Positions 9,685 through 35,955 of a stretch of 49,913 nt of DNA are shown here, one piece after another. The stretch lies in contig JAAUYS010000068.1 of the NCBI GenBank assembly GCA_014804995.1, positions 1-49,913 of the forward strand, given 5' to 3'. The notes beneath the pieces were generated by a model. The model saw only the letters and a program-made list of their open reading frames with translations, did not search any database and had not been told where the DNA came from. Each line of letters opens with the position of its first letter. Position 1 is the stretch's first letter. Made by a program: the position numbers and the translations under genes. This DNA comes from Clostridia bacterium (lineage in GTDB: Bacteria; Bacillota; Clostridia; Christensenellales; Borkfalkiaceae).

Positions 9685-9715
9685 TTTAGTATGCCAAAGA
9701 TTATTCCACATTAAC
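9685..9715 (-). promoter_or_regulatory. Bipartite phage motif upstream of purB
   Basis: Minus strand: GTTAAT, 15 bases, GCATACTAAA, then four bases to ATG of purB. One of eight sites with exactly 15 bases between TTAAT and the GCAYAC half; its distal 10-mer is identical to the one upstream of purZ. Confidence 0.7.
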
Positions 9716-9889
9716 GAAGCCCATCTTGGCGAGTTCCGCTTGAAAGTCCTCACTCGGCTCGTCGAACTGCTCTTTGATACCCTCGAACCGCTGACAGATG
9801 GCGTATTTGCCGCTTGGAAGCTGACAGTAGAGCAAGTCGTCTTTTCTCATAATGGGCAATATCAAGCCCTCACCCAAATCATTCATCAT
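9701..9889 (-). CDS. Small protein, unknown (62 aa)
   Basis: Starts MMNDLGEGLILPIMRKDD at ATG 9889 with GGAGGGAA just upstream; the start overlaps the stop of the large head protein. An upstream in-frame GTG is less likely. Short beta-like N-terminus and acidic C-terminus. Unknown; probably head-associated by position. Confidence 0.6.
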   Translation of the reverse strand: MMNDLGEGLILPIMRKDDLLYCQLPSGKYAICQRFEGIKEQFDEPSEDFQAELAKMGFVNVE

Positions 9890-12800
9890 TTCCCTCCAAA
9901 GCCCCACCTGTGTCGTCCGACTTGATGGATTTCTTGCCGCGACCCGCCACCACGCGTATCTCGACAGCGGGGAGTTTCTTATAATAAGAATCTACCGCGC
10001 TTTTATAGTCGTTCACCAACGACCATCCCAAATCCTTAAGTTTATCCGATCCCGTGTTCGACAGTTCCTTTTCGAATTCCTCGTCCGACATCTTGGACAA
10101 TTCGTCTATCGGCACATTCTTCCAACTCTCCATCTGCTTGTCGATGTCGTTCACTTTGGTCTTCAACCTGCCGTACGCGCCTTGCTTATCAACAATATCG
10201 TCAATTCCCTCTGTGTAATAAGGGCTGTCTTTCCAGTCGCCCATAACGTAGACCGCGCCGCCATTCGAAATGATAGGTGGTCTTAAACGATAGAGTTGAT
10301 GCTGATCGTCCTCTCCCAAGTACGATTCTACCTTGTCTGCTATGTCTTGTCTCTTTTGCCAGTCCGATTGAGGATTGGAATAGGTGGACACATATTCGTC
10401 CTTTACGTCCTGTGGAATGTCATATTTGTCCAAGAACCCACCCAAGATTTCTTTCGCTTTTTTAGGGAGCACGTTCTCTATGATGTCCTGCTTTCGTGCG
10501 AACTTCTCCCTCTGCTTCTGAAGAGACTTTATCTGCTTGTCCACATTCTTCTGCGAGAAGTAGTCCGACACCTTAGGCGGAGCGATACTCGTCGCGTCCA
10601 GATTACTCGCATTATAGAAAGCGATGTCGTAATCTATGCCTTGCCTTAGATATCTGTCCAACAGATCAGTCGGTTTCTCGAAGACAAACATATCGAAGTA
10701 ATCCTGCGATTCTGCAAACCCCTCATCTATATGCTCAAGTTGCTCTTGATCGGCAATCGAAGCCCCTACGTGCGGCAATTTTCCAGACCTCTCGCTACCT
10801 CTCGTCTCCGCCCACTTCTTGCCCATAGGTGTCTTGGAGAACTCTTCCAACATCTCCGAGGTAAGTTCGTCATATATCTTGTTCTTGTTCTTGGGGTATC
10901 TCCTATATATGTCATCTGCGTGGTCTTGAATAAATTTCTTCGTCCACTCGAAAGTGTCGTCTATATACTCACGCATACGGAGTTTTGCCTTGGCTTGCTC
11001 TTGACGATTTCTTTGAACATAGTACGATGGGTGGTCTTTGCTCACTATGTCGTCATTCGCCAATTGCTTAATGTTGTCCCAGTCCTGCTCCTGTCGGAAC
11101 ATCTTACCATACTCCTCTTTCCTCGCACCCTGCGAGCCGACAGACTTCACATAAAAGGACGACGCACCAGTAAGCATTTCAAACGCCCTGTTCGGGTTCT
11201 TGTCCAATCTATCCGTGCCACAAGGGTGGAACATACCTATACTGTTGTCAAGATAATCATCACGCTCGATTATTAGTTTCACCGACTGGCGAGTGCTACC
11301 ATATCTCCTCGTCCAAGACGACCCCGAATACTGATCGGCGATCTCCTCGTATGAGGAAATGGCAGTACACCCTGTAAGTTCGATGGTATCCGCTTCTCCC
11401 GACACCAACTGATTGAACTGCTCACGAGAGAGCGTCATACCACGGAAGAAATTGGGTATCTTCTCCCTTGACATATCGGGGTGCTTAAGGTGCTCTTGGG
11501 CGTATTTCCTCAACCCGAGACCATCTTTTATTTTAGCCGCATATCCCCAACTGCTTAAGTCTTGGGTGTATTCTACTAATTGCCCATTTTCCATCTTGTC
11601 GATGGGCTTCCAGTCTGGTGCGTTGACCAACGCCACCGCCGTAGCCACATCATTCTCCGTGGTCGCGTCTCCCCAGTGTCCGCCGCGCCGAGGTTCTATC
11701 TTCGCCATAAGTTCGTCATAGCTCTTGTCTGTGATAGAGCCGTCATCATTGAACTCGATATGAGTACCGAGCACCATGGGGTCTTTAGGGGGGATAAAGT
11801 TCTTGTTGTGCAAGATGTGAAAGTCTGCCTTTATGAGCTCCTGCTTACCCTCTGTCTTGGGTTTGACGACATGCTCCTCTTTCGGCTCTTGCTGTATCTT
11901 CGAGACTATCTCTTGGTATTTGGCTACCTTATCTTTCCAAGAAAGAGATTTCGGATTCTCCACTCCACTATCTTCAAGAAGAGCCAAAAGCCCACCTCTG
12001 GTAAGCCTATAGAGACCTTTATTTCCGTATTTTTGAGCGATATCCTTAGCGTCCTGCGCACTCTGTCCGCCCTCTTCTTTCTTCTGCTCGCTCTGTCCGC
12101 TATCCTGCTTGTCTGCCAACGCCCAACTGAAAGTACCAGTCTTCACCCATTTCGTGCCATCGGGTCTCGTCTTGATGTCGCCTATCTGATAGGGCTTGCC
12201 AGTCGAGGGATTGATAGCCGCCCCCTTAGCGACCCTACCCATCTTGACACGCAAGATGTCTTTAAATATCTCGTTGGTCGCCATCTCCTCGACGAGCAAC
12301 TTGTATCCACACTGACAATTAATAACTTCCGAAGCGGGCGCGGCGGGGTCGTGAGGATACATAAGACCTATAGAGAACGGCGATCCGAAAGCAACTTTCT
12401 CGCCGTCTATTGCCTTGTGATTCTCTCTCGGGTCTTTGACCAGACTGTCGTTATGTACCCACTGCTTCACTATGTGCAATTTGCCTTGATTGCGCTCGGC
12501 GAGTTCCTGCGCATACAGATATTTGGTCATATCCACAGCCGAGCGCACTTCCGTTACCGCAATGGTCTTGGCGTGTGCTGTGGTATAGGTGCTGAACGTG
12601 TCCTTGATGTGCTGTTGCATCTGCATGATCGCCGCTTCCGCGTCATTCGGGTGCTCGATTATTGATTGACGAAGACCGCGCGTGATCGAGTTCCTCATCG
12701 TATCCGTAATCATCTTGCCGCTCTGCGCCGCCTTGTGGGCAGTAACGGCAGGAACGGCGTATTCGGGCAGGTTGATTATGCCCATATTGACACTCTCGTC

Positions 12801-12965
12801 GAACGCATTGCGCATTCTGCGGTCGGAGAGTTGGTGCATCTTCTTTGTGGCTCGCAACGAATTGTCTATAATGATGTCCTGTATGAGTTGGGTGTAAGTG
12901 AGACCCTTGATATCCACCCCATACTTCTTAGCCAATTTCTTGAGCGTTTGTCTATACCCCGCCAT
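9879..12965 (-). CDS. Head morphogenesis protein (SPP1 gp7/Mu F-like) with ADP-ribosyltransferase-like domain (1028 aa)
   Basis: Residues 1-230 match the minor head protein family that follows the portal: helices, TAHAKTIAVTEVRSAVD near 130-145, and a closing metal-type NCQCGYKLLVEE near 216. Residues about 375-610 look like an ADP-ribosyltransferase: an FFRGM segment with Arg508, a TGCTAISS segment near 531-538 for the STS motif, and FEMLTGASSFYVKSV with Glu596. The first Glu of the usual E-x-E is Ala594. Residues 610-1028 are charged and unrecognised. gp7-type proteins can enter the cell with the DNA, so the fused domain may be a delivered effector. Far larger than the usual 300-residue gp7. 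Confidence 0.8.
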   Translation of the reverse strand: MAGYRQTLKKLAKKYGVDIKGLTYTQLIQDIIIDNSLRATKKMHQLSDRRMRNAFDESVNMGIINLPEYAVPAVTAHKAAQSGKMITDTMRNSITRGLRQSIIEHPNDAEAAIMQMQQHIKDTFSTYTTAHAKTIAVTEVRSAVDMTKYLYAQELAERNQGKLHIVKQWVHNDSLVKDPRENHKAIDGEKVAFGSPFSIGLMYPHDPAAPASEVINCQCGYKLLVEEMATNEIFKDILRVKMGRVAKGAAINPSTGKPYQIGDIKTRPDGTKWVKTGTFSWALADKQDSGQSEQKKEEGGQSAQDAKDIAQKYGNKGLYRLTRGGLLALLEDSGVENPKSLSWKDKVAKYQEIVSKIQQEPKEEHVVKPKTEGKQELIKADFHILHNKNFIPPKDPMVLGTHIEFNDDGSITDKSYDELMAKIEPRRGGHWGDATTENDVATAVALVNAPDWKPIDKMENGQLVEYTQDLSSWGYAAKIKDGLGLRKYAQEHLKHPDMSREKIPNFFRGMTLSREQFNQLVSGEADTIELTGCTAISSYEEIADQYSGSSWTRRYGSTRQSVKLIIERDDYLDNSIGMFHPCGTDRLDKNPNRAFEMLTGASSFYVKSVGSQGARKEEYGKMFRQEQDWDNIKQLANDDIVSKDHPSYYVQRNRQEQAKAKLRMREYIDDTFEWTKKFIQDHADDIYRRYPKNKNKIYDELTSEMLEEFSKTPMGKKWAETRGSERSGKLPHVGASIADQEQLEHIDEGFAESQDYFDMFVFEKPTDLLDRYLRQGIDYDIAFYNASNLDATSIAPPKVSDYFSQKNVDKQIKSLQKQREKFARKQDIIENVLPKKAKEILGGFLDKYDIPQDVKDEYVSTYSNPQSDWQKRQDIADKVESYLGEDDQHQLYRLRPPIISNGGAVYVMGDWKDSPYYTEGIDDIVDKQGAYGRLKTKVNDIDKQMESWKNVPIDELSKMSDEEFEKELSNTGSDKLKDLGWSLVNDYKSAVDSYYKKLPAVEIRVVAGRGKKSIKSDDTGGALEGNDE

Positions 12966-16651: not shown

Positions 16652-16681
16652 ATTATATCACGACTGACATATCCTTGTCAA
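16652..16681 (-). promoter_or_regulatory. Sigma-70-type promoter, extended -10, for packaging genes
   Basis: Minus strand TTGACA (16681-16676), 18 bases, TATAAT (16657-16652), with TG before the -10. It is embedded in the last codons of the RuvC-like gene and ends five bases before the small-terminase ATG. Confidence 0.8.
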
Positions 16682-17834: not shown

Positions 17835-18228
17835 TCTTCACCCTCAAGAAACCCAAAAAATAATCAGTGTGCATACGAATGGTGAACTTCGCGCCGTCCT
17901 GCGCAAATCCGTCCTGTTCAAATACCAAGAAAGTCTTATCCAACACGCCGACCACGATAGCAACGTGCCCATACTTATTGTTCTCGGTAGCCCCCCAAAT
18001 GGCGACATCGCCGACCTTGGGTTCTTGTTCCCTAGTAAAATATTTCGGTTCGAGCAACTGGTCGTACTTGAGCCAAAGGTCTTTCGCACCCTCGACTGCT
18101 CCAGTGTGAGGGATTTTGAGCACGTCTTGGCAGTACTGGCGAAATAAGTCCACACACTGCGCCCCAAACGCGCCATCGAAATCCACTTTCTTTCCTGTAT
18201 ACTTATTCAGAAACTCATCAATTGTCAT
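17827..18228 (-). CDS. CHAP-domain endolysin (133 aa)
   Basis: Start chosen at ATG 18228 (MTIDEFLNKYTGKKVDFDG) with GGAG upstream; a longer frame exists only over the nuclease gene. A single CHAP domain: catalytic Cys in GAQCVDLFRQYC near 29, His in YGHVAIVVGVLD near 89, and the DVAIWGA strand between them. It cleaves peptidoglycan amide or peptide bonds. No cell-wall binding domain and no signal peptide, so it needs a holin. Confidence 0.88.
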   Translation of the reverse strand: MTIDEFLNKYTGKKVDFDGAFGAQCVDLFRQYCQDVLKIPHTGAVEGAKDLWLKYDQLLEPKYFTREQEPKVGDVAIWGATENNKYGHVAIVVGVLDKTFLVFEQDGFAQDGAKFTIRMHTDYFLGFLRVKNE

Positions 18229-18985
18229 CGGGTTCTCCTTTACATCTGTCGTGATAGGAGCAGTAGGAGCACTGCCAGTCTTTTTCTTTGAAGTCCATCT
18301 TCGGGAGAATGCTTTCTTTAACACACTGCTCCACGATTTTGCAAGATTCAATAATGTGTATAAATCGGAGAGGACAGTACGTAACCTCGCTAGTGCCCAT
18401 TCTTTCAATTTTCAGCCCCCTCTCGTCCTTGCTCACTATGAAGCCGATGATATAGCCATTGTCTCGTCCGACGTAGAGCAGGAGAATCTTGCTCAAGGGT
18501 TGTACGGTCTGCTCGAGGTAGCAACAACACTGAATGAGATTCTCGATCTTCACGCCGTTCTTCTTAATTGTATCGAATCCGCGCCCATAGGTAGACTTCC
18601 ATTCCACTCCCACAAGATCGCCGTTGGGTGCTTTAAACAGATAGTCCATTCGACCGCTGAAAGGAAACTCTATCCCCTCGGCGTTCCAAACGACTGGAAT
18701 TTCCGCACCCAAGTTCTCGTAGCCCTCGGATTCCAAGTGCTTGGCGAGGAGACTGTCCAAATAGTTGTGAATCAGATCCCCGACGTTGCACTTGAAGAGA
18801 GCTACCGCGTCCATCGGATTGGTACGTTCTGCTCTAGTGAGGTCATAATAAAGTGCCCTCTTGCACTTCCCGATGTGCACACCGTCAACTTCTGCGCCGA
18901 TACCGCTTGGATACCAGTGCTGTTTCCGTTCGTGCGTTTCTTGCTGTGAAAGCATTTGATCATAAATCGCCTTAACTAAATTCAT
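18218..18985 (-). CDS. Cas4/RecB-like PD-(D/E)XK exonuclease (255 aa)
   Basis: An N-terminal Cys (GKCKRALYYDL near 40), the nuclease core GRMDYLFKAPNG then LVGVEWKST (Asp...Glu-x-Lys) near 130-150, a QCCCYL segment, and a C-terminal iron-sulphur-type cluster WQCSYCSYHDRC. These are the features of Cas4/AddB-like exonucleases. In a phage with RecA it fits recombination-linked replication or host DNA degradation. ATG lies four bases after the bipartite motif, predicting a leaderless message. Confidence 0.85.
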   Translation of the reverse strand: MNLVKAIYDQMLSQQETHERKQHWYPSGIGAEVDGVHIGKCKRALYYDLTRAERTNPMDAVALFKCNVGDLIHNYLDSLLAKHLESEGYENLGAEIPVVWNAEGIEFPFSGRMDYLFKAPNGDLVGVEWKSTYGRGFDTIKKNGVKIENLIQCCCYLEQTVQPLSKILLLYVGRDNGYIIGFIVSKDERGLKIERMGTSEVTYCPLRFIHIIESCKIVEQCVKESILPKMDFKEKDWQCSYCSYHDRCKGEPDDN

Positions 18986-18989
18986 ATCC

Positions 18990-19020
18990 TCTAGTATGCT
19001 CCGTCATTATTCTGATTAAT
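18990..19020 (-). promoter_or_regulatory. Bipartite phage motif upstream of Cas4-like gene
   Basis: Minus strand ATTAAT, 15 bases, GCATACTAGA, then four bases to ATG. The motif includes the TAG stop of the preceding gene. Confidence 0.7.
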
Positions 19021-22502: not shown

Positions 22503-22966
22503 TTTCCGCTCGACCCGAAGCCCTTACTGCCACGCTCGCGCTCATCGAGACGAATGACGTGCTTGAACCTACACTCGACCAGTCTGTGTGGAATAATCTG
22601 TGCCAACCGCTCACCCATCTTAATCTCCTTGGATTCGTCTGATGGATTGTAGACACAGGCAAACATCTCGCCCGTATAATCGTTGTCAATTACCGCCGAG
22701 ACGACCTGCAATCCGCGTACCCTCATCGTAGACGAGCGCGGCAACAGTTCGAACCACAATCTGTCGTCCGACTGGACACACACCCCGCTCGGCACGTTGA
22801 CATTCTCGTGCGGCGGAATGATGGTATCTCTTGAGCAATATAGATCATAACCCGCGTCGCCCCTATACTTGTGATCGGGTATGTGCCCCGCCACTTCCTT
22901 GGTGAACTTTACTTCGTGCGGATAATCCAAGAACCACTCCAACACCCGACCAATCAGTTTTCTCAT
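22499..22966 (-). CDS. dut: dUTP diphosphatase (dUTPase)
   Basis: Start at ATG 22966 after GGGGGAG, overlapping the kinase stop. All five dUTPase motifs are present: RGDAGYDLY, PRSSTMRVRGL, VIDNDYTGEMF, GERLAQIIPH, and the C-terminal RGSKGFGSSG. It hydrolyses dUTP to dUMP and keeps uracil out of DNA. A roughly 30-residue N-terminal extension precedes the core. It sits with the kinase and polymerase genes. Confidence 0.93.
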   Translation of the reverse strand: MRKLIGRVLEWFLDYPHEVKFTKEVAGHIPDHKYRGDAGYDLYCSRDTIIPPHENVNVPSGVCVQSDDRLWFELLPRSSTMRVRGLQVVSAVIDNDYTGEMFACVYNPSDESKEIKMGERLAQIIPHRLVECRFKHVIRLDERERGSKGFGSSGK

Positions 22967-23457
22967 ATCTCCCCCCAAAACCGAGACATTGCTCGATTAT
23001 TACCCGTATCCAGTGTGTAGACCTTGAAGTAACTCTCCAAGTTTTTCTGAAGCAGAATCGTCGCCTTTACTCGGGCGGCGACTATGTCGTCTACGTCGTC
23101 CTGCCTGTTTTCTGTCAACACCCTGTGCTTGAGCCGCTCCGCGATGACTACTGGATTAGCGTAGCAGTAGATAATCTTCTTATCATTCAGAGACAAGAGT
23201 TTGGTGATCTGCTCCTCTGTCCGAGGATATCCGTCGATCACGCAATCGCCACTGCTGATGGTTTCCCATACCTTGGCTTCTATAGCGTCATTGAACTTCG
23301 CAGAGAAGTCTTTCTCCTTGATTGACTGCTCTATTGTCATTCCCAAAGAGCGAGCGTACGCTCCTGTACCCAAATAAGGAATGTTTTTCCTCTTTGCAAG
23401 CTCCTTTCCTATGGTTGACTTGCCCGATAATGGATAACCCACGATAAAATACTTCAT
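22963..23457 (-). CDS. P-loop nucleotide kinase, (d)NMP kinase-like (164 aa)
   Basis: Walker A near the start, VGYPLSGKSTIGKEL; IDGYPRTEEQ near 75 as in adenylate-kinase-like enzymes (GFPR pattern); and LKHRVLTENRQDD for the lid Arg region. It phosphorylates a nucleoside monophosphate. The substrate is not determined by sequence; next to dUTPase and in a probable Z phage, dZMP or dTMP are candidates. RBS AAGGAG; the gene has its own bipartite motif upstream. Confidence 0.8.
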   Translation of the reverse strand: MKYFIVGYPLSGKSTIGKELAKRKNIPYLGTGAYARSLGMTIEQSIKEKDFSAKFNDAIEAKVWETISSGDCVIDGYPRTEEQITKLLSLNDKKIIYCYANPVVIAERLKHRVLTENRQDDVDDIVAARVKATILLQKNLESYFKVYTLDTGNNRAMSRFWGEI

Positions 23458-23467: not shown

Positions 23468-23498
23468 TTTTGTATGCAAGAGACTATATTACATTAAT
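23468..23498 (-). promoter_or_regulatory. Bipartite phage motif upstream of nucleotide kinase
   Basis: Minus strand ATTAAT, 15 bases, GCATACAAAA (one difference from the purB/purZ form), then the ribosome site AAGGAG. It follows the primase-helicase stop. Confidence 0.65.
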
Positions 23499-25739
23499 CT
23501 CTCGTATTGTCTGTATAGCCCTATCAAAGTCGCACGGAATCTGTACCTCATCCCACCCAAACCTGTTCTTTGACACGTTAATCAAGAAATTCGAGCCGTC
23601 ATTCTCTTCGGGATTCATCTTCCGAACCGCCAAAGCCGCGTCAGCGTCAGCAATCATAGCGTACGCTCCCGCCTGTTCGTTTGCGTCGGGTGTGGTAGAC
23701 TGGAGAGCCGACCTCTTGAGTTGCGTCAACGCGATCACAGTTACCCCGAGCGAACATATCTGATTCTTGAGGGTCTTGGTGATCTCCGCCAACTGCTCCC
23801 ACCTGTCAGCCCTAGACTGCATAGTGATAAGTTGCACGTAGTCGATGAACACGAACCTTGTCTTGCGACGCATAATCTGCGCCTTGGCTATTGCCACTAT
23901 CTTGTAGAGGTCTCGGCTACCCGTTACCACCTGCAGATTGCCGTGCATAAGGGAAGCCGCCGCGTCCACTACCTTATCATACTCGAACTGTTCGAGAGAA
24001 CCTGTAGCAATCTTTGCCGACGGTACTTTACTCCGAATGGTAATCAGTTTCTCTATGATTTCGTCTCTTGACATCTCGAGAGAGAAGAAGAGACAACCGT
24101 ACTTATCTACTAGAGTGTCCAAGAAGTTACAGGCGACGGTGGTCTTTCCGTGTCCGCTGTTTCCCGACAACAACACCAGTTTGTTCGGATTCCAACCGAG
24201 CAATGTATGGCTAAGCGTGGGGAAACCCTCGATGTCGATACCTTTCACATTCGGATTGTCCACGCGCTCGTTAATAATCTTCATCACACTCCGAATACCA
24301 CTCTCGCCGTCCTCAACCTCGGTGTTGTCGGTAATCCTGAACAAGTCCTCGACTATCTTCGGTACGTTGGTAACGTCGCAACTCTGAAGCAACCTGCGCA
24401 CCACGTTCGATTCGCCATTCTTCCTTACGATCTCTATGTATTTCTCATAGTTGATCAAGTCCACGTTGCTCGAAAGGTCTATCTGAAATATGGTGGCTAC
24501 CATCTGAATCGACACCGTCTCGTTGGTAACAATATAACTAAAGATAGACTGGAAGAAATCTCCTGTGAAATATTCCGCCCGAAGAGCCTGTATCGTGTCA
24601 AGCCGTATGTTCGCGCTACACAACGCATTAGCCAACACCACGCGCTCCGCGCCTATATCGTGTCGCTCGTCTATCTTGAGATAGATCAACGCTTCGTCGC
24701 TTCCATATGCCTTGGTATACCACTCCCGCGCAAGTACCTTGTCGGTGTTTGACATTCGGGCGTACACGTCCTTGCTCTCCTTAAGCATAGAACACTTCGC
24801 GGCGAGGTCTGCCACGCTACCATACTTGGCGGTGAGATACCACTCGAACGGATTCCACCGACGCTGATTGGCGAAGTCGTTCGCCAAAATGTGATCATCG
24901 GGGTCGCCGCTCTTTAGGGCGATAAGCTCCATAGACAGATCTTGAGGTGCTTTTCGCACCACCCTATCGAGCCAACCCTGCCCACCCAAGTCTCCATCTG
25001 GGCACACGATTATCTTCTGAATACCAAATCGCTCTATCTCGCCCCAACCGTCCTCGTGAATCTCCGTACCGCAAGCGCACACAGCATTATATCCTGCCTG
25101 TACCGCTATCATAGCGTCGTGATAACCCTCGAAGATATAGAGTTCGTCCTGTCGCTTGACGGTTTGCCAACCCCACATTCCGCGCTTGAAATATTTCGCG
25201 TCCTCTCTTGAGGTCTTGTATTCCTTATGGTCTACTGGACGCACCGCCATCTTGTATACTCCGTTCTCGTCATAGAACGGATAGACTATGCAATTGTTGC
25301 ACTCGATCAATCCCAACTCTTTGGCTTGCGACCTGTCGAATTTCCCCGATATCCATTCGTCGAAACTCTCGACATAGCCTACGTGAAACCGCCTAGCAGT
25401 CTCCTGTATAATCCCTCGATTCTTGAGATAGTCGTGGTAAGGCAAGTCGTCGAAGAGAGAATTTAGTACCTCACGCTCGGTGTTAAGTTTAAATCCGTTA
25501 AGATCAGCCCAAATCCTCTTGGCTTCAAACTTCGGAATCTGCTGAAATTCCGAGATGAAGTCAGCAGGACTACCACCTTTCTTGCACGAATAGCAGTACC
25601 ACACATAGCCGTTATCTTTCTTAGAGACCGTGAACGAGGGTACTGCGTCGGCGTGGAATGGGCAGGAAGCCCACCATCTGTTGCCGCGCTCGATAAGCAC
25701 CAACCCCTGCTGTTGGAGATATTCGACGAAGTCAATCAA
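23484..25739 (-). CDS. Bifunctional primase-helicase (DnaG/DnaB-like, T7 gp4 type)
   Basis: 751 residues. Zinc domain: CPFH and CYSC pairs near 26 and 49. TOPRIM: IFEGYHDAM near 195 and IIVCPDGDLGGQGW. C-terminal RecA-like helicase: Walker A SGNSGHGKTTV near 526-534, Walker B RFVFIDYVQLI near 628, and the Arg/Gln motifs around ALTQLKRSA. It makes primers and unwinds DNA at the fork. Starts with TTG at 25739, overlapping the stop of the preceding gene (TTGA), so it is probably translationally coupled. Confidence 0.92.
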   Translation of the reverse strand: MIDFVEYLQQQGLVLIERGNRWWASCPFHADAVPSFTVSKKDNGYVWYCYSCKKGGSPADFISEFQQIPKFEAKRIWADLNGFKLNTEREVLNSLFDDLPYHDYLKNRGIIQETARRFHVGYVESFDEWISGKFDRSQAKELGLIECNNCIVYPFYDENGVYKMAVRPVDHKEYKTSREDAKYFKRGMWGWQTVKRQDELYIFEGYHDAMIAVQAGYNAVCACGTEIHEDGWGEIERFGIQKIIVCPDGDLGGQGWLDRVVRKAPQDLSMELIALKSGDPDDHILANDFANQRRWNPFEWYLTAKYGSVADLAAKCSMLKESKDVYARMSNTDKVLAREWYTKAYGSDEALIYLKIDERHDIGAERVVLANALCSANIRLDTIQALRAEYFTGDFFQSIFSYIVTNETVSIQMVATIFQIDLSSNVDLINYEKYIEIVRKNGESNVVRRLLQSCDVTNVPKIVEDLFRITDNTEVEDGESGIRSVMKIINERVDNPNVKGIDIEGFPTLSHTLLGWNPNKLVLLSGNSGHGKTTVACNFLDTLVDKYGCLFFSLEMSRDEIIEKLITIRSKVPSAKIATGSLEQFEYDKVVDAAASLMHGNLQVVTGSRDLYKIVAIAKAQIMRRKTRFVFIDYVQLITMQSRADRWEQLAEITKTLKNQICSLGVTVIALTQLKRSALQSTTPDANEQAGAYAMIADADAALAVRKMNPEENDGSNFLINVSKNRFGWDEVQIPCDFDRAIQTIREINVI

Positions 25740-26196
25740 AGTTCACCACCTTGACGGCGTGTGAAGTGAGGGCAGTGAATACCTTGTCGAGATTATTCAC
25801 CACCCTCTCTTCTTCGGTGTCCTGCCAGACCTTGTAGATATACGAAACGTTCTTCACCTTACTTACTCGTACAGAAATGCGCACCCTCGGAAGAGAGATT
25901 GACATCTCGTTGATCTTTCCAAGGTCATATTTGGTCATCTCACACACGCTGTCGAAGATGTTGTATGCCGACCAAAAGTCCGCATTAATCCGCTTGCCCT
26001 TGCCAAACATTCTTCTCGACATTTCCTTATAATCCGAGGGAGCATATGGAACATTGTCCTTAGAGAACCTATATTTCTTAATAACACGTTCCAGTTGTGG
26101 CACATTCTCCGCATAGAATAATGCTTCCTCAAGGTCTCTCCACTCGTTTTTCGGAAACTGAAATCTAGTCATCAGCCTTTCACAGTCTGTAGTCAT
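25732..26196 (-). CDS. Replication-region protein, unknown (154 aa)
   Basis: ATGA overlap at its start and TTGA overlap with the primase-helicase at its end. Helical N-terminus (PKNEWRDLEEALFYAE) and a beta-rich C-terminal half (PRVRISVRVSKVKNVSYIYKV). A bipartite motif lies inside the gene, 220 bases before the helicase start. No family recognised; a helicase loader or accessory role is only suggested by position. Confidence 0.7.
   Translation of the reverse strand: MTTDCERLMTRFQFPKNEWRDLEEALFYAENVPQLERVIKKYRFSKDNVPYAPSDYKEMSRRMFGKGKRINADFWSAYNIFDSVCEMTKYDLGKINEMSISLPRVRISVRVSKVKNVSYIYKVWQDTEEERVVNNLDKVFTALTSHAVKVVNFD
25959..25989 (-). promoter_or_regulatory. Bipartite phage motif inside the 154-aa gene
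   Basis: Minus strand ATTAAT, 15 bases, GCATACAACA. It could drive the primase-helicase 220 bases downstream. Weaker than the others because it lies in coding sequence (Ala-Tyr-Asn). Confidence 0.45.
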
Positions 26197-27096: not shown

Positions 27097-27387
27097 TCAA
27101 TCCTTTGCGCATTCGGGAGTGATTTTCAATTCTTCCGCCAAGCGTTCGCTCTGCGCCTTGAAGAAATCCACGTCATTCGTCAACTTCTCGATCCTCTTTC
27201 CATAGTCCTCTCGAAGTTCTTCCATTTCCTGCTTATGACGTGCATTGCACTCCACGAGGTGGCGATATTCGTCTATGGTAATGGTTACCATAATCTCCCT
27301 AGGCGCACTATAGTTGTATCTATTGTCGCCATAAGTATGGAGTTCTTTGCCAACCTCAACCACGTTATCCTGTTTATTGTCTTCCAT
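27097..27387 (-). CDS. Coiled-coil protein, unknown (96 aa)
   Basis: ATG 27387 with GGAGGT upstream and a bipartite motif 16 bases further up. Residues 45-90 are strongly helical (KQEMEELREDYGKRIEKL). The N-terminus is polar with a Tyr/Asn-rich stretch. Probably a small structural or partner-binding protein. Confidence 0.7.
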   Translation of the reverse strand: MEDNKQDNVVEVGKELHTYGDNRYNYSAPREIMVTITIDEYRHLVECNARHKQEMEELREDYGKRIEKLTNDVDFFKAQSERLAEELKITPECAKD

Positions 27388-27402: not shown

Positions 27403-27433
27403 TTTGGTATACACATAGTCCAAATACATTAAT
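27403..27433 (-). promoter_or_regulatory. Bipartite phage motif upstream of 96-aa gene
   Basis: Minus strand ATTAAT, 15 bases, GTATACCAAA (two differences from the commonest form). A UUCG-capped hairpin lies immediately upstream, between the previous stop and the motif. Confidence 0.6.
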
Positions 27434-27457: not shown

Positions 27458-27634
27458 TCATTGAATCTCGACTATCTTGTTGCCATTTCTTTTATAGAAG
27501 CGCGGCTCTTCGAAGAGCACGTCCTCGCCACTCAACTTCGCAATCTGCTCACACTTCTTCTTGACATCAGATTTCAGTCTTTCGATTTCTGCCTTGACAT
27601 GTATGTCTGTTACCACGTCGATTGCTCTTTTCAT
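27458..27634 (-). CDS. Small charged protein, unknown (58 aa)
   Basis: Start at ATG 27634 (MKRAIDVVTDIHVKAEIERL) with GGAGG upstream. Helical and charged, ending YKRNGNKIVEIQ. Unknown. Confidence 0.65.
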   Translation of the reverse strand: MKRAIDVVTDIHVKAEIERLKSDVKKKCEQIAKLSGEDVLFEEPRFYKRNGNKIVEIQ

Positions 27635-27770
27635 TCTTCCTCCAATATTTGAAGATGATTCCCATCGCATACTTCCACCTTAGGCGGAACGGCTCTTCAC
27701 ACAGCGCGATAAGAAACCCAGTGATCACCCTGTCAATCTGATTGATCTCCCTCTGCTTCCTGTTACCCAT
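27567..27770 (-). CDS. Small basic protein, unknown (67 aa)
   Basis: ATG 27770 overlaps the preceding stop (ATGGGTAA). Early part (IDRVITGFLIALCEEPFRLR) has a short hydrophobic helix. The last 20 codons overlap the next gene, and this end looks like a shadow, so the real stop or start may differ. Confidence 0.45.
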   Translation of the reverse strand: MGNRKQREINQIDRVITGFLIALCEEPFRLRWKYAMGIIFKYWRKNEKSNRRGNRHTCQGRNRKTEI

Positions 27771-28104
27771 CTACTCCCTCCAAAGTGAGCACTGTAGTCT
27801 TTCTCGACAGACCGTCATATTCGAACTTGATGACCTTGAGCACCTGTTCCAAACAGTCTCTTCTGTCCATCGCCTTTATCTTGTCCGTTATGTTATGGGC
27901 TTCCGAGAAAGCCCGAGTGCGGGCGATAAGATAGACATAAATTTCCGAGAAGTACTGATATAGCGCAGGATATTGACCGAGCAACTGTGCATACCTCTCG
28001 GAATCGACAACCAACGACTTTTCGTGTGTCGGAATAGATCCGAAGCAGATGTCTCGTATCTCGTCGAGAGAGAGTTCCATCACGTTCTTCGTCGTCAGTA
28101 TCAA
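27763..28104 (-). CDS. Protein of unknown function (113 aa)
   Basis: TTG start at 28104 overlapping the DatZ stop (TTGA). Helical, with conserved-looking DSERYAQLLGQYPALYQYFS near 45 and DRRDCLEQVLKVIKFEYDGL near the end. No MazG-type metal motif (ExxE...ExxD) is apparent. It follows DatZ, so a link to nucleotide metabolism is possible but unproven. Confidence 0.7.
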   Translation of the reverse strand: MILTTKNVMELSLDEIRDICFGSIPTHEKSLVVDSERYAQLLGQYPALYQYFSEIYVYLIARTRAFSEAHNITDKIKAMDRRDCLEQVLKVIKFEYDGLSRKTTVLTLEGVDG

Positions 28105-28646
28105 TGCTTAATCTCCTTGGGCAGAGCCTTTGCCACTTCGAGAATTGTGCTCCTCGGGATTCCCAAGATGTTCTCGATAGAATCGCCATACATCTCGAGA
28201 TATTCAAGAAGCCGACCGAGCGTCTCGCAATAGATCGGTTGCAGATGTCTGTTGCCCGAGACTGTCTCTTCCTTGAGGTAGAGCGCGAACTCCAAGATGT
28301 CCGCGAGTTTGACTATCTCGAGGGTGCGACTGTCCGTGCCGAGACTGATGTTGAGTTCTTTCGCACCCATCTCGTCCAGTCCGACGACCGCCATCTTACC
28401 CATCGCCCTGCGGACGAGGAAAGGAATGTCTCCCGTAACCGCTTCGGGCATATCGTGCATAAGACCCATTTTCAAGCAATAGCGGGCTTCTTCCTCGCCC
28501 AATCCTTGGTCGATCGCTATCCGATAAGCCATCACACCCACATAGAACGAGTGCTCCGCTACGTTCTCGTAGCGATTGCACCGCTCAAAGTTAAGCCGTC
28601 TGACATACATCAGAGACCGAACTTTCCTTATATCCAGTTTGAACAT
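28101..28646 (-). CDS. datZ: HD-domain deoxyadenylate phosphohydrolase, DatZ-like
   Basis: Start chosen at ATG 28646 after AAGGAG; an in-frame ATG at 28679 lies upstream of that ribosome site. The 181 residues match the size of DatZ. HD residues: H32 in ENVAEHSFYVG, H64-D65 in LMHDMPEAVTGD (with E68), and D116 in KLADILEFALYL. DatZ and YfbR-type enzymes dephosphorylate dATP or dAMP. In Z phages this clears dATP so that dZTP is used instead. Together with PurZ this supports an adenine-free genome. Overlaps the recA end by 56 bases. Confidence 0.88.
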   Translation of the reverse strand: MFKLDIRKVRSLMYVRRLNFERCNRYENVAEHSFYVGVMAYRIAIDQGLGEEEARYCLKMGLMHDMPEAVTGDIPFLVRRAMGKMAVVGLDEMGAKELNISLGTDSRTLEIVKLADILEFALYLKEETVSGNRHLQPIYCETLGRLLEYLEMYGDSIENILGIPRSTILEVAKALPKEIKH

Positions 28647-29577
28647 ACTGCTCGAACTCCTTAGAATTTCCATCGACATAGGCGACCATATTCGCCCTGC
28701 CGTTCAGTTTCACGTCCTTGTATTGATAGAAAGAACCCGACTTCGTGATAACCCCCTTAGTAAGCATCTCGTCGAACAGTTCAGAAGCGTGATCTATACC
28801 CTTACCCCAAATAATGGGAACTTGAGCCACACCGTTCGGCGCGGCGCACTTGTTCTTCACCACCTTGACCCGACTGTATTTGCCAATCTGCTCTCCCTTT
28901 TCCTCGATAGCGTCTCCGACCTGCCTTATATCAAGCCTTATCGACGCATAGAATGGAAGAGCGCGACCGCCAGTAGTGGTGTCGGGCGAACCGAACACCA
29001 CACCAATCTTGCTTCGGATCTGGTTGATGAAGATTATGCACACCTCGTTCTGTGCTATCCGAGCAATGGTCTTGCGGAAACCCTGCGACATCATTCGGGC
29101 TTGAAGACCCATCTGCGCTTCGCCGTAGTCTCCCCTCAACTCCGCTTCGGGTGTCATCGCACTCACACTATCTACGACTATTAGCTTCACCCCCTTGTTG
29201 AGCAATATGTCTATCGCTCTCCAAGTGTCCTCGCCAGTCTCGGGTATGAGGTGAAGCCAGTCCTTGTTGACTTCGCCCTGCACACCCATAGTGCGGAAAT
29301 AATCGTAATCGAGAGTATTCTCGTTGTCAATGTAGCCGAAAGGAAGACCCATCTTTTGAGCCTGTACACACGCCGACATCGCAAGAGTGGTCTTGCCGCT
29401 GTGTTCAGCCCCATAGATCTCCACAACGCGACCCGCAGGATATCCACCTATCTTCAAGGCTTTATCCAATTGAATAGACCCTGTGGGTATCACGTAGGAG
29501 ACCGGCTTCGGGTCTTCCATTCCGACTTCTTTCTTGACCTGTGAGAAAATACTCTCGATATCAATGTCCGTTTTCAC
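28591..29577 (-). CDS. RecA-like recombinase
   Basis: 328 residues. Walker A GAEHSGKTTLA near 55-65, Walker B LIVVDSVSAMTPEAEL, the L1/L2 loop region with MMSQGFRKTIARIAQNE, INQIRSKIGVVFGSPDTTTGG, and a short C-terminal domain. It promotes strand exchange in recombination-dependent replication and repair. GTG start at 29577 overlaps the stop of the ssDNA-binding-like gene (GTGA), so the two are coupled. Confidence 0.95.
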   Translation of the reverse strand: MKTDIDIESIFSQVKKEVGMEDPKPVSYVIPTGSIQLDKALKIGGYPAGRVVEIYGAEHSGKTTLAMSACVQAQKMGLPFGYIDNENTLDYDYFRTMGVQGEVNKDWLHLIPETGEDTWRAIDILLNKGVKLIVVDSVSAMTPEAELRGDYGEAQMGLQARMMSQGFRKTIARIAQNEVCIIFINQIRSKIGVVFGSPDTTTGGRALPFYASIRLDIRQVGDAIEEKGEQIGKYSRVKVVKNKCAAPNGVAQVPIIWGKGIDHASELFDEMLTKGVITKSGSFYQYKDVKLNGRANMVAYVDGNSKEFEQYVQTGYKESSVSDVCQTA

Positions 29578-30479: not shown

Positions 30480-31546
30480 CAGAAACCCCCTTTAATAGCG
30501 TCGCGCGGCGACGTGCCGATCCACACCACAGGCGCGTGTGCGATTTCTTCCATCTGTTGCTTGCGAGCCAAGAGCTTAGCGCGAGACGCTTCGGGAATTT
30601 CCGTGAGAGTGGTGCGCCCATCAATATCGGGTGCAAGATAGTCCGCGAACGAGAGCGCAAGCATCGTCGGCTTGTTGACGCGCACGGCGTGTTCGAAATC
30701 CAACCAAGAAAACTCGAAGATTCTGCGGGTGAGTTTGGTAACCGTAGTGCGCTCGGGTTCAACCTCGCGCCCGCAACGCTGACTAATGTCTTCCCAAGTA
30801 AGTTCCTTTCCGCCAGTGTCGCCGCTGTTGCCGTGAACGCGGATCGGGTATGAGCGAATCACACCGATGATGTCGCGCACGTCGCGCGGCGAGAACCCAC
30901 ATTCAGCAAGATATCCACTCGCCGTGCATTCGCGCGTCGTGCAGAACGGATAATAGGGCGTAGTATGAACGGAGAGCATAGTGCCCTGCGTACCCTCGAG
31001 GAGTACCGAAGCATCCATTTCGTTGAGCATTTCGATGGTATCCACCACCTTGAGACCCATCTGTGTTGCATATTCCTTTTCGTTCTTCATCTGCTTCGGC
31101 AAGAGACTATTATGTCCGCGCCACAATTTACGAATGAGAATCGCGCCGCAACCGTGGGCGGTGCTCCCCATCTCCTTGTTCATTCCGTCGCCGTCGTTCT
31201 CGGCTTCGATGTCGCAGTCTTCCAGAATCGTTGCACGTCCGTCGATATAGAGACGATCGCGCACGTCCTTTCCAGTCGCCTTATTAATCATTTCAATCTC
31301 GCGCTCGAGTAACTTCTTCTCGATGAAGCACCCCGCCCCGAGAAACAACTTGACATCGGGGTCAACCCACGCGCACGGAATAGTCTGTACGCTATACATC
31401 TCGCCCTCGTAGGTGAGCGAGTGCCCCGCATTGGTTGCACCTGTTCGAATGCTCGCGTCATACTTGCGAGACTTGAGCAGGTCTTCGATGACGTGTCCTT
31501 TCGCGCTACTGCCGAACGACAAGTCCACAATAATGTCTACTTTCAT
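30479..31546 (-). CDS. purZ: PurZ: 2-amino-deoxyadenylosuccinate synthase (PurA homologue)
   Basis: 355 residues, the PurZ size (PurA is about 430). The GTP loop reads FGSSAKGHVIED: where PurA has GDEGKGK with catalytic Asp13, this has Ser13-Ser14, the change that marks PurZ and lets dGMP be the substrate. Retained: GATNAGHSLTYEG near 36, GSTAHGCGA near 125, LLEGTQGTMLS near 185, and GNSGDTGGKEL near 250. PurZ joins dGMP and aspartate, giving N6-succino-2-amino-dAMP; PurB then yields dZMP. Transcribed with a short hairpin-containing leader behind a bipartite motif. Confidence 0.9.
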   Translation of the reverse strand: MKVDIIVDLSFGSSAKGHVIEDLLKSRKYDASIRTGATNAGHSLTYEGEMYSVQTIPCAWVDPDVKLFLGAGCFIEKKLLEREIEMINKATGKDVRDRLYIDGRATILEDCDIEAENDGDGMNKEMGSTAHGCGAILIRKLWRGHNSLLPKQMKNEKEYATQMGLKVVDTIEMLNEMDASVLLEGTQGTMLSVHTTPYYPFCTTRECTASGYLAECGFSPRDVRDIIGVIRSYPIRVHGNSGDTGGKELTWEDISQRCGREVEPERTTVTKLTRRIFEFSWLDFEHAVRVNKPTMLALSFADYLAPDIDGRTTLTEIPEASRAKLLARKQQMEEIAHAPVVWIGTSPRDAIKGGF

Positions 31547-31558: not shown

Positions 31559-31601
31559 GGGCGTTTCAGCCCTCGTATTTAGTATGCGCCCGAACGGGCG
31601 C
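31559..31601 (-). promoter_or_regulatory. Two hairpins in the purZ leader
   Basis: Minus strand: palindrome GCGCCCGTTCGGGCGC (31601-31586) fills the spacer of the bipartite motif, and a second hairpin GGGC-TGAAAC-GCCC (31572-31559) ends just before the ribosome site AAGGAG. They could end upstream transcription or tune purZ translation. Confidence 0.5.
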
Positions 31602-31608
31602 GATTAAT
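31578..31608 (-). promoter_or_regulatory. Bipartite phage motif upstream of purZ
   Basis: Minus strand ATTAAT, 15 bases, GCATACTAAA. The distal 10-mer is identical to that of purB. About 30 bases of leader precede the ATG at 31546. Confidence 0.7.
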
Positions 31609-32138
31609 TAATACCAGTTCTTCCACTTGTTGCGAATGGACTTCTTGACGCGAGCCACGTATGGCGCGCTACAGTTCATCTCGAGGGCGATCTGCTTGCA
31701 GTGATTGTCGTACATAAGGTCTGCCCTATCCAAGAGCCATCTCCTCGCCACATATCTCTCGTTCCCGTGCAGGGTGGAGAGGAAGCGTTCGATGTCGAGT
31801 TCGAGATTTTTGTCTCTATCCTTGCTCTCGAAGTCCCATTGCTCGCCGTTCTCTTTGGTGGCGGAGACAAGCCGCACCACAGTCTCACCGTCCGAGCGGT
31901 AAGATTTCATCTTTCCGTCCTTGACTTTCATCTTCCTCTTCGTATTCTCGGACAGCCGAGCGTTCCGAATTGCACCATAACCACAGCAGATAAGATATGG
32001 GATCGGGTCGCGCCCGTCGCTGTCCTTTCGGTGCTCGAGCACACCGAGCCAAAAGTTCTGATGATCATCCTCGTTCTTCTTGAGTTTCCGAAGCCTTTCC
32101 TCTCCCAATCCGTTTTCGATCATTACTACCAAATCCAC
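31608..32138 (-). CDS. Sigma-factor-like protein with region-4 helix-turn-helix (176 aa)
   Basis: GTG start at 32138 after GGGGG. The N-terminal part (HQNFWLGVLEHRK, then PIPYLICCGYGAIRNARL) resembles the core-binding helices of phage sigma-like proteins. The C-terminal 60 residues (FLSTLHGNERYVARRWLL, HCKQIALEMNCSAPYVARVK) are a helix-turn-helix of sigma region-4 type. It would direct host RNA polymerase to phage promoters, and it is the best candidate partner for the eight bipartite motifs. Confidence 0.72.
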   Translation of the reverse strand: MDLVVMIENGLGEERLRKLKKNEDDHQNFWLGVLEHRKDSDGRDPIPYLICCGYGAIRNARLSENTKRKMKVKDGKMKSYRSDGETVVRLVSATKENGEQWDFESKDRDKNLELDIERFLSTLHGNERYVARRWLLDRADLMYDNHCKQIALEMNCSAPYVARVKKSIRNKWKNWY

Positions 32139-32716: not shown

Positions 32717-32745
32717 ATTATAACACGGCTTCGCGCCGCTGTCAA
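32717..32745 (-). promoter_or_regulatory. Sigma-70-type promoter, extended -10
   Basis: Minus strand TTGACA (32745-32740), 17 bases, TATAAT (32722-32717), preceded by TGT. The spacer contains a CGGC/GCCG inverted repeat. It lies about 40 bases upstream of the 112-residue gene. Confidence 0.82.
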
Positions 32746-33321: not shown

Positions 33322-33330
33322 CTCTCGCTC

Positions 33331-33883: not shown

Positions 33884-33893
33884 TTTCGTCTCC

Positions 33894-34226: not shown

Positions 34227-34258
34227 AAACAACTCCTTAACCTCTTCGGGTCAATTCT

Positions 34259-34287
34259 ATTATAACACGCCTTTCCGACGCTGTCAA
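34259..34287 (-). promoter_or_regulatory. Sigma-70-type promoter, extended -10
   Basis: Minus strand TTGACA (34287-34282), 17 bases, TATAAT (34264-34259), preceded by TGT. It lies about 33 bases upstream of the 110-residue gene. Confidence 0.82.
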
Positions 34288-34301
34288 TTCTATACAGACG
34301 A

Positions 34302-34547
34302 CTAGCGCAATATCTTGTCGTACTCCAACTTCTGCTTGAGATGGTCTATCTCCTCGACGAGTAATCGGTTCTGCTGTTCCTGCTGTATACACTTCGCCTT
34401 GGCATCGGTCAACTTCCATTTGAGGTCATAACATTCCTTTTCAAGTTTTGCCGACTGCTCTTCCATCTGCTTGTACGACTGCAATATAACGTTGGCAGTA
34501 TATGTCTGCCTGACCATCTCCTCAAATTCCTTTCTCGAAATCCACAT
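34302..34547 (-). CDS. Coiled-coil early protein (81 aa)
   Basis: ATG 34547, overlapping the preceding gene by 26 bases. Nearly all helix with heptad pattern (LEKECYDLKWKLTDAKAK, then LLVEEIDHLKQKLE). Probably an oligomeric adaptor; unknown function. Confidence 0.7.
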   Translation of the reverse strand: MWISRKEFEEMVRQTYTANVILQSYKQMEEQSAKLEKECYDLKWKLTDAKAKCIQQEQQNRLLVEEIDHLKQKLEYDKILR

Positions 34548-34905
34548 TCTCCAATACTCTCCTATTCGTCCGCGAAACGTTGCTCAAGGGAATCTTTAAA
34601 TCTCTTATTTTCCGAGCGGAATTTATATCGCCGTCTACTTCCACTTCCGCATACAAGCCATATTGGCAACTCTCGAGCGGACAATTGCGGCAATGATAGA
34701 ACAGGGTGCATAGCACACAGTTCGAGTGCTTGGATAGCAGTCTCCTCGCTTCGAGGGAGATGTGTCCGTCGGTAAGCAACTGTGTCGCGGCTTCTCCTTT
34801 CTTCTCGTCCAAAAACTCCGTATAGTCGGCATAGTCCTCTTCTTCCGCTTCGAGAGCATCCACTACCGCGCTCCATATGTGCCTGTGTATCTCTTGTACT
34901 GTCAT
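34522..34905 (-). CDS. Cys-cluster early protein, paralogue 2 (127 aa)
   Basis: Start at ATG 34905 (MTVQEIHRHIWSAVVDALE), overlapping the previous stop as ATGA. The first residues are nearly identical to those of paralogue 1. Core: NCVLCTLFYHCRNCPLESC, then ARKIRDLKIPL. The N-terminal helix is extended by an acidic insert. Confidence 0.78.
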   Translation of the reverse strand: MTVQEIHRHIWSAVVDALEAEEEDYADYTEFLDEKKGEAATQLLTDGHISLEARRLLSKHSNCVLCTLFYHCRNCPLESCQYGLYAEVEVDGDINSARKIRDLKIPLSNVSRTNRRVLENVDFEKGI

Positions 34906-35246
34906 ACTCTCTCCAAAATCTGTATAGCATCCTCGCTCGCCAGTTCCAAGTCCAGTTCCAGATCTCGGATCTCCTCGCAGGACTTCCTGTCGCCCCAAGT
35001 GGCTTTGGCGTATAGTCCATCATCACTACAATGATTGAGGGGACAATCCTCGCACTCAAGATAGATCCGACACAGCACACAGTTGTAGTATGCACCGAGC
35101 GTGTCATGAGCGGTTTGCGATATCTTCCCTGTCGTGAAGAGTTTGTCTACGGCGCGCCGCTTCACTTCTATCATCTCTGCGGGATTCTTGACGTGAGAGT
35201 GAACCACCATATTCCAAATATATTTATGAATTTCCTGTACGGTCAT
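34902..35246 (-). CDS. Cys-cluster early protein, paralogue 1 (114 aa)
   Basis: ATG 35246, four bases after a bipartite motif, so a leaderless message is predicted. MTVQEIHKYIWNMVVHSHV, then NCVLCRIYLECEDCPLNHC and CEEIRDLELDLEL. First of three tandem-family members; zinc binding likely. Unknown role. Confidence 0.78.
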   Translation of the reverse strand: MTVQEIHKYIWNMVVHSHVKNPAEMIEVKRRAVDKLFTTGKISQTAHDTLGAYYNCVLCRIYLECEDCPLNHCSDDGLYAKATWGDRKSCEEIRDLELDLELASEDAIQILERV

Positions 35247-35250
35247 ATCC

Positions 35251-35281
35251 TCTAGTGTGCACGAGGGGGTTGTCGATTAAT
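35251..35281 (-). promoter_or_regulatory. Bipartite phage motif upstream of 114-aa gene
   Basis: Minus strand ATTAAT, 15 bases, GCACACTAGA, then four bases to ATG. Includes the TAG stop of the first early gene. Confidence 0.68.
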
Positions 35282-35608
35282 CTCCAATCTCTGAACCATC
35301 TTCTTCCATTTTGACACTTTCGGACTGTCGGGTTGTAAGGTGAGTTTGCGATATAGATTAAGGAGTAGTTCGTCGCGATTTTCGTTTTTACGATTTATGA
35401 GAGCCTGTCTCATATGCTGTTCGCACAGTGCCGCCACATAGGGGGTCTTCTTATAGCCGCTCATATGGAAGCCATACATTTCGCGTTCTGTATAGGGTTT
35501 TCCTTTCCTATATGAGAAGAGCCATATATCACTATTTGAACACTTCGCACAATGACCATATGCTTCCCTTATTTCCTGCTTATACTGGTCTTTATTGATA
35601 AAGCCCAT
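35252..35608 (-). CDS. First leftward early gene, zinc-type protein (118 aa)
   Basis: ATG 35608, after a roughly 295-base leader. CAKCSNSDIWLF near 20 and LCEQHMRQ near 61 form a CxxC...CxxH zinc pattern, as in small HNH-like or ribbon proteins, but the catalytic His-Asn pair is not clear. Basic C-terminus. Probably an immediate-early product given the strong promoter upstream. Confidence 0.7.
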   Translation of the reverse strand: MGFINKDQYKQEIREAYGHCAKCSNSDIWLFSYRKGKPYTEREMYGFHMSGYKKTPYVAALCEQHMRQALINRKNENRDELLLNLYRKLTLQPDSPKVSKWKKMVQRLEINRQPPRAH

Positions 35609-35903
35609 TCTGTGTTTCCTTAAATTGTAATTTAGTGTAATTTAGTTAAAGTGGTTTAACCACCACCATTTGCCCTTAAAGCATAGAATCCCCTAAAGTT
35701 GGTCTGTAACCAAGTATCAAAGGGAATCACCCTCGCTTGGCTCTCGATTTGCGGCAGGGCGTAAAAGGGATTACACAAAATCACCCTGCTCGGTACTCAC
35801 GAGATTCCAGTTGACCCAACTTTAGGTAACTCTACGCTTCGAGAGAGTAACCACCGCCACTTGCCCCGAAAACACAGAATCCCCAAAGAAACGAAAACCT
35901 ATA
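35609..35903 (-). ncRNA. Structured 5' leader of the early operon
   Basis: This 295-base stretch holds no gene. In the minus-strand transcript two 37-base repeats (35884-35848 and 35693-35657) agree at 31 positions; all begin GGGGATTCT and end GGTGGTTA. Between them an 11-base perfect stem CCTAAAGTTGG/CCAACTTTAGG (35826-35816 with 35702-35692) encloses smaller hairpins, including CCAAG/CTTGG and GCAGGG/CCCTGC pairings. Another stem with one mismatch (GGTTACTCT/AGAGTTACC) follows repeat 1. It may be a regulatory leader, a small RNA or part of an origin. I do not recognise it. Confidence 0.55.
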
Positions 35904-35909
35904 GTATAC

Positions 35910-35938
35910 ATTATAACACAGCGGATTAATTTTGTCAA
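35910..35938 (-). promoter_or_regulatory. Main leftward early promoter, sigma-70-type, extended -10
   Basis: Minus strand TTGACA (35938-35933), 17 bases, TATAAT (35915-35910), preceded by TGT. Both hexamers are perfect. Start of transcription is expected near 35903, feeding the structured leader and the whole leftward genome. Confidence 0.88.
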
Positions 35939-35955
35939 GTACTCTGCACACTAAA
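35925..35955 (+). promoter_or_regulatory. Bipartite phage motif for the rightward operon
   Basis: Plus strand ATTAAT (35925-35930), 15 bases, GCACACTAAA (35946-35955), then AAGGAG and ATG 35973. It overlaps the -35 region of the leftward early promoter on the other strand, so the two may exclude each other. Confidence 0.7.

Follow-up and report, generated by a model that had tools for sequence, protein, structure and literature searches.

The middle promoters of bacteriophage T4 keep a TATAAT −10 element and host σ70, with MotA and AsiA acting by promoter appropriation. Salmonella phage 7-11 encodes a sigma factor, SaPh711_gp47, with late promoters of the form GTAAtg-(16)-aCTA, and its early genes are transcribed from strong σ70 promoters; the study that describes it also foresees further phage sigma-promoter pairs (PMC8948821). 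In Escherichia phage phiEco32, according to the same study, a single element (tAATGTAtA) without a −35 element goes together with gp36, a protein without region 4 (PMC8948821). Here we describe a candidate sigma-promoter pair in contig JAAUYS010000068.1 (C68) of the 2.4-Mb, 210-contig Clostridia bacterium assembly GCA_014804995.1; the whole contig of 49,913 nucleotides is referred to below as the window. The element, RA-TTAATS-N14-G(C/T)ATACTARA, is, judged by its sequence, a phage promoter class in which TTAAT is the −35 element and G(C/T)ATACTA the −10 element, and we put at about 0.78 the probability that this class is read by host core polymerase together with a candidate phage sigma factor of 171 or 176 amino acids (aa).

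The T4 middle promoters share with these sites a phage-specific −35-like box at middle genes, and the sequence of the MotA box is unrelated to TTAAT. With phage 7-11, the locus has in common a bipartite promoter (GTAAtg-(16)-aCTA in 7-11 and TTAATS-(18)-ACTA here, the gap differing by 2 nucleotides (nt)), a small phage sigma, here a candidate, that would first be transcribed from strong host σ70 promoters, and a sigma-dependent promoter, here likewise a candidate, upstream of the sigma gene itself (PMC8948821). Unlike in 7-11, we find no convincing sigma homology (hhalign probability 0.7 against gp47, with single sequences on one side) and the PHROG families differ: gp47 and gp36 both match phrog_1740, which is absent among the families listed at E <= 1 for three sigma-like A1 members, and the candidate sigma proteins match phrog_351 weakly. 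Also unlike 7-11, three of the four homologues here have a zinc ribbon, the genes served are presumed to be middle rather than late, and there is a gene set for DNA containing 2-aminoadenine (Z-DNA). By analogy, the present pair may work as the 7-11 pair does. The phiEco32 system, too, has conserved promoters for non-early genes, and its TGTATA resembles the GTATAC found here, but hhalign gives no link between gp36 and our candidate (0.2, again with single sequences on one side; phiEco32 promoters as in PMC8948821).

The motif sites of the window are these.

9685..9714, minus strand: motif site before purB (ATG at 9680, 4 nt past the motif)
18990..19019, minus strand: motif site before a Cas4-like nuclease gene (ATG at 18985, 4 nt past the motif)
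23468..23497, minus strand: motif site before an adenylate-type kinase gene (ATG at 23457)
25959..25988, minus strand: motif match within the coding sequence of 25732-26196, probably a chance occurrence
27403..27432, minus strand: motif site before a 96-aa gene, 27097-27387
31578..31607, minus strand: motif site in the gap between purZ (ATG at 31546) and the sigma-like gene
35251..35280, minus strand: motif site before a 114-aa gene, 34902-35246 (gene start 4 nt past the motif)
35900..35929, minus strand: ninth motif site, minus half of a back-to-back pair, overlapping a perfect σ70 promoter
35926..35955, plus strand: motif site before a 102-aa gene, 35973-36281, and plus half of the back-to-back pair

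An earlier note on this DNA had reported eight of the sites. All eight are present as it gave them, save that the plus-strand site begins at 35926 and not at 35925; the minus-strand site at 35900 was missing from its list, overlaps the plus-strand site by 4 bases and leads into a structured non-coding stretch. As the note had proposed, seven of the eight end 4-31 nt upstream of a same-strand start codon, and those before purB (9685), purZ (31578), the kinase (23468) and the nuclease (18990) are among the sites placed before genes. Over all nine sites, seven lie within 45 nt of a gene start (P ~2e-9, a binomial estimate); for this test seven genes missed by our simple gene caller were added by hand, the caller having mis-started or missed genes such as 18218-18985, 34902-35246, 28101-28679 and the sigma gene of the relative R2 introduced below. 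The fixed spacing of 15 bases, which the note had thought beyond chance, is indeed so: TTAAT-Nk-GYAYAYTARA with at most 1 mismatch has 8 matches at k=15 and 1 match over the 14 other spacings (k 8 to 22) together, 15 being the only enriched spacing. The full consensus of the note, at up to 3 mismatches, has 9 matches in the window (mean 2.58 and maximum 7 in 100 shuffles), and in a de-novo count of 4-mer pairs in 75 upstream regions of the window pieces of the motif fill all ten top ranks, the best pair being TAAT-19-ACTA with 5 observed and 0.016 expected. The motif is specific to the phage and is not a host regulon; across the 2.4-Mb assembly, 8 of 11 matches at up to 1 mismatch fall in the phage contig and 3 elsewhere.

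We read the window as a complete, circularly permuted phage genome because its ends carry a direct terminal repeat of 119 bases and adjoin each other in two relatives, R1 and R2. It encodes a structural set (terminase, portal, major head protein) together with DNA polymerase III alpha, a primase-helicase, RecA, dUTPase, a nucleoside monophosphate (NMP) kinase, PurZ, DatZ and PurB. The relatives, from IMG/VR, are R1 (L024, G001), R2 (L025, G002), R3 (L026, G003) and R4 (L009, G004), with primase-helicases 76%, 77%, 76% and 39% identical to that of the window; their sample numbers presumably indicate a rumen origin. R3 is nearly a copy of R1 and is excluded from counts of distinct phages, of which there are four: the window phage, R1, R2 and R4.

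The DNA itself shows that the element exists, that its spacing is fixed, how it is oriented, that it stands at gene starts or upstream of them and that the four distinct phages conserve it. The earlier note had looked to related phages for conservation of the halves and their spacing, and the three distinct IMG/VR relatives do carry the element. At up to 2 mismatches there are 9 matches in the window, 10 in R1, 8 in R2 and, in its own form, 6 in R4, where simulations gave means of 0.37, 0.37, 0.53 and 0.9 and maxima of 2, 2, 3 and 4 (30 runs each), the window pattern being derived from the window itself and the relatives' forms adjusted after inspection. The form in R4, the most distant relative, is TTAAT-N15-GTATATAAAA (3 perfect sites, 2 with one mismatch, and 1 match at all other spacings combined), as against a right half of GCATACTAAA at the window sites. 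A matrix iterated over the window, R1 and R2 (33 sites) gives RA-TTAAT-S-N14-G-(C/T)-A-T-A-C-T-A-R-A, with both As and the C within ATAC nearly fixed (33/33, 33/33 and 32/33) and the T after ATAC loose (21/33), figures that overstate conservation because the sites were picked by score. Strong matrix matches (score >= 20) number 9 in the window, 8 in R1 and 10 in R2, of which 7, 4 and 5 lie no more than 45 nt before a gene start; the others are in back-to-back pairs, farther upstream or in the upstream gene, or inside a large gene (R1 23776, R2 22506). In the de-novo count, TTAA-18-ATAC ranks only 7th and 8th in R1 and R2, amid noise. Across 18 pairs of sites the boxes are 81% identical and the spacers 34%. 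In each of the four distinct phages, sites precede the orthologous genes for PurZ, the kinase and the nuclease; the purZ sites of R1, R2 and R4, too, fall between purZ and the orthologue of the sigma-like gene. An 88-89-aa gene lies between site and kinase in R1, R2 and R4, and the R4 purZ and nuclease sites are some 300-350 nt upstream of the gene (~345 nt for purZ). The purB site is common to the window (4 nt before the gene) and R2 (site 26449, 84 nt before), and R1 has no purB match but keeps a weaker motif (GAAAACTAAA) at 27617 (L045). Back-to-back pairs occur in the window (35900/35926, 4-base overlap), R1 (48287/48309, 8 bases) and R2 (48306/48319, 17 bases); none was seen in R4. We also note that the spacer of the purZ site (31578-31607) is a perfect hairpin (GCGCCCGTTCGGGCGC), by eye not retained in the spacers of the relatives.

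The protein that we consider the most plausible reader of the motif is encoded immediately beside the purZ site.

31608..32138, minus strand: candidate phage sigma factor of 176 aa from a GTG start or 171 aa from the ATG at 32123

We infer that this is the best candidate because it has a homologue in all four distinct phages (62% identity in R1 and R2, 37% in R4), lies downstream of perfect σ70 promoters and has a region 4-like fold, with weak region 2 matches in homologues. The earlier note had called the protein sigma-like. This stands for region 4, as the protein has the helix-turn-helix of that region of the σ70 superfamily, the only confident part of the window protein; region 2 appears as sub-threshold matches in homologues and not in the window protein itself. 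Matches to the Sigma70_r2 and Sigma70_r4 profiles in the homologues are sub-threshold, the weak Sigma70_r2 matches falling at the same place in three of them, and fold models give two-domain alignments with a large root-mean-square deviation. With the zinc ribbon, these models and profiles suggest a layout of sigma region 2, zinc ribbon and sigma region 4. The protein also has a weak Pfam HTH_6 match, beyond which the small genes of the window that were scanned against Pfam (10 in one scan, others in further scans) gave no transcription-factor match.

The window has a second promoter class, of perfect σ70 promoters.

35910..35938, minus strand: perfect TTGACA-N17-TATAAT, overlapping the motif pair 35900/35926
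34259..34287, minus strand: perfect TTGACA-N17-TATAAT
32717..32745, minus strand: perfect TTGACA-N17-TATAAT upstream of the sigma-like gene
16652..16681, minus strand: perfect TTGACA-N18-TATAAT upstream of the terminase gene
8154..8183, minus strand: perfect TTGACA-N18-TATAAT before gene 7683-8147, which opens the major-head-protein block

Promoters of the form TTGACA-N17/18-TATAAT number 5 in the window, 6 in R1, 6 in R2 and 2 in R4, and 18 of these 19 have GTG(T/A) immediately before the −10 element. Three of those in the window (35938, 34287 and 32745) are upstream of the sigma-like gene, in what we take to be the early region, and two (16681 and 8183) precede structural blocks; the sigma-like gene lies downstream of at least one perfect σ70 promoter in R1, R2 and R4 as well. 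Motif sites also occur farther upstream of the sigma-like gene (35251 and 35900 in the window, 42785 and 43761 in R4, and 49036 in R2 if that record is circularly permuted), so a positive loop is possible. Beneath the overlapping σ70 and motif promoters there is a non-coding stretch of ~250 nt (35620-35905, minus strand) that shares a GGGGATT box with similar stretches of R1 (48339-48525) and R2 (48349-48600); it is perhaps a regulatory RNA, with a fold z of −3.0 in the window and −1.1 in R1, and a search of 35-37 kb of the window against Rfam gave no match at E <= 1. Near the 35251 site, 34522-35246 holds two slightly overlapping genes (34902-35246 and another starting at 34905) with near-identical starts (MTVQEIH..IW), apparently a duplication.

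In the course of infection that we propose, host σ70-type polymerase would fire the perfect promoters at 35938, 34287 and 32745, and the block containing the 171/176-aa gene would be transcribed. Its product, with a shortened sigma region 2, a zinc-ribbon linker (in three of four homologues) and region 4, would then displace host sigma on core polymerase and fire the motif promoters of four presumed middle genes, those for the kinase, the nuclease, PurZ and PurB. It might also act on the motif sites that lie upstream of its own gene. At the sites that end 4 nt short of the ATG (9685, 18990 and 35251 in the window, 9239 in R1, 7528 in R2), transcripts would be predicted to start at or beside the ATG if initiation occurs, as it does in phage 7-11, at a distance of 6-9 nt from the box, and nearly leaderless messages would result.

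That the motif is a phage-specific promoter, as the earlier note held, is supported by its fixed spacing, sense orientation and gene-start placement, by the conservation of boxes and not spacers, by the back-to-back pairs in three of the four distinct phages and by the scarcity of matches elsewhere in the assembly. Some observations weigh against our reading of it. All sigma-family matches that have a curated cut-off fall below that cut-off. One of the eight sites first reported, 25959, is probably a chance match; in the R1 and R2 orthologues of gene 25732-26196 the site is instead 4 nt before the gene start. The fair cross-phage test, with the consensus of the note left unchanged, finds enrichment in R1 (8 matches at spacing 15 and 2 at the 14 other spacings), more weakly in R2 (5 and 4) and not in R4 (1 and 4).

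Alternatively, host σ70 could read the right half as a weak −10 element (TATACT/CATACT), with TTAAT bound by a phage-encoded activator (the 171-aa protein or some other); this would be appropriation of the kind known from T4. The statement of the earlier note that neither half is σ70-like holds in part: CATACT/TATACT shares 4 or 5 of 6 bases with TATAAT, the better match, TATACT, standing in the right half at many sites of R1 and R2. The final T, though, is loose and the preceding C nearly fixed. That TTAAT occupies the place of the −35 box, and that a region 4-like helix-turn-helix is what can be recognized in the window protein, would suit an activator; TATATAAA in R4, a C at the first position of the −10-like hexamer in 7 of 9 window sites and region 2 matches that, weak as they are, recur at one place in three homologues argue the other way, and we regard appropriation as unlikely. 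An alternative sigma of the host, such as a sporulation sigma, is a far weaker contender. Sporulation-sigma −10 boxes resemble CATAC, and by our own reading of its proteins the assembly, which is the phage host by binning only, has RpoD as well as several sigmas of the SigE/F/G type, one of them encoded next to a SpoIIGA-like protein; yet only 3 of the 11 motif matches lie outside the phage contig and the R4 sites have drifted together.

We think it similarly improbable that the motif is an RNA element, that is, a processing or translation signal in the leader. At five sites the motif ends 4 nt short of the ATG, at two window sites it overlaps a ribosome-binding-like AGAGG, and a hairpin fits the 31578 spacer, all of which would agree with such a role. 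But the spacers keep a single length while varying in sequence, and the overlapping back-to-back pairs of the window, R1 and R2 speak for promoters because a transcript carrying an RNA element there would have to enter via the opposite gene. An operator bound by a phage repressor or by some other protein, to which we give hardly any weight, would account for the fixed register and for the σ70 promoter overlapped at 35900. It sits poorly with the mostly sense orientation at gene starts and with halves that by eye have no dyad symmetry, and seven of the nine window sites overlap no σ70 promoter found at up to 1 mismatch, whereas the pair 35900/35926 does.

Searches beyond these relatives returned little. 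Megablast of window positions 8300-32200 against 50,697 phage records gave no match, and against the same records the sigma-like proteins found no clear relative (four weak matches for R1, best E 0.1; none for R4). In IMG/VR the DNA polymerase and the sigma-like protein of the window, as single queries, found no relatives. A genome contig collection gave 5 distant primase matches, of which four come from Spirochaetes and the fifth from a Clostridiales assembly, and the stretches around them had no motif at up to 2 mismatches and no other match from the window gene list. Records L010 and L011 had no motif at up to 1 mismatch, and the stretches of them examined gave only a PurZ match; the sigma profile had two weak same-genus matches, one with internal stops. 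A terminase search found 69 loci, including the short contigs L069 (83%) and L073 (41%), and the motif scan covers the known relatives. A collection-wide scan with a strict form of the motif, which misses R2 and R4, picked out 11 stretches, two of them R1 and R3 and the other nine single matches that by a rough estimate are background.

Four genes, some of them behind the motif, bear on the chemistry of the phage DNA.

30479..31546, minus strand: PurZ, 2-aminoadenylosuccinate synthetase-like (phrog_1211, E 3.1e-64)
8364..9680, minus strand: PurB-like adenylosuccinate lyase (Pfam Lyase_1, E 3.3e-38; ASL_C, E 1.6e-7)
28101..28679, minus strand: DatZ-like dATP triphosphohydrolase (phrog_7076, E 6.1e-19)
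22963..23457, minus strand: adenylate kinase-like NMP kinase (Pfam AAA_17, E 1.7e-10; ADK, E 2.7e-7)

The PurZ of the window has a stretch, FGSSAKG, at the place where PurA carries a catalytic Asp, and for this reason the phage DNA is likely to be built with the modified adenine. Like Z-DNA phages, the window has genes for both PurZ and a dATP triphosphohydrolase, here with purZ among the motif-bearing genes; it differs from them in its polymerase, which is of the Pol III alpha type, and in having a PurB-like gene. We take PurZ, PurB and the kinase to be three steps of a probable 2-aminoadenine nucleotide synthesis. Adjoining DatZ is a 113-aa protein (27763-28104, minus strand; 79% identical in R1, 86% in R2, 40% in R4) with no Pfam or PHROG match at E <= 0.001. 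Z-containing DNA has three hydrogen bonds per A-T pair, and the perfection of the σ70 promoters might help its opening. It is a tentative and rather doubtful extension of this idea that the phage sigma and its promoter class evolved for opening Z-containing DNA, the perfect, TG-extended σ70 promoters letting the host enzyme open the injected Z genome and a sigma of its own serving the Z-making genes. One Z-DNA phage paper (PMC12884076) contains the word 'promoter' 0 times and 'sigma' solely as a vendor or program name, and among titles and abstract openings we recognised no study of polymerase opening promoters in Z-DNA.

Taken as we favour it, the locus presents a conserved candidate sigma-promoter pair, of the sort that the 7-11 authors foresee (PMC8948821), in phages known here only from assemblies. 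In the suggested plan of the sigma, regions 2 and 4 flank a zinc ribbon, and the genes of three probable 2-aminoadenine synthesis steps (PurZ, PurB and the kinase) stand behind one kind of promoter. A motif as short as this one would make such regulons readable in phages that cannot be grown, and the sigma-promoter pair could reveal how polymerase opens promoters in Z-DNA. If the Z-DNA reading is true, the regulon would be a self-reinforcing base-replacement programme.

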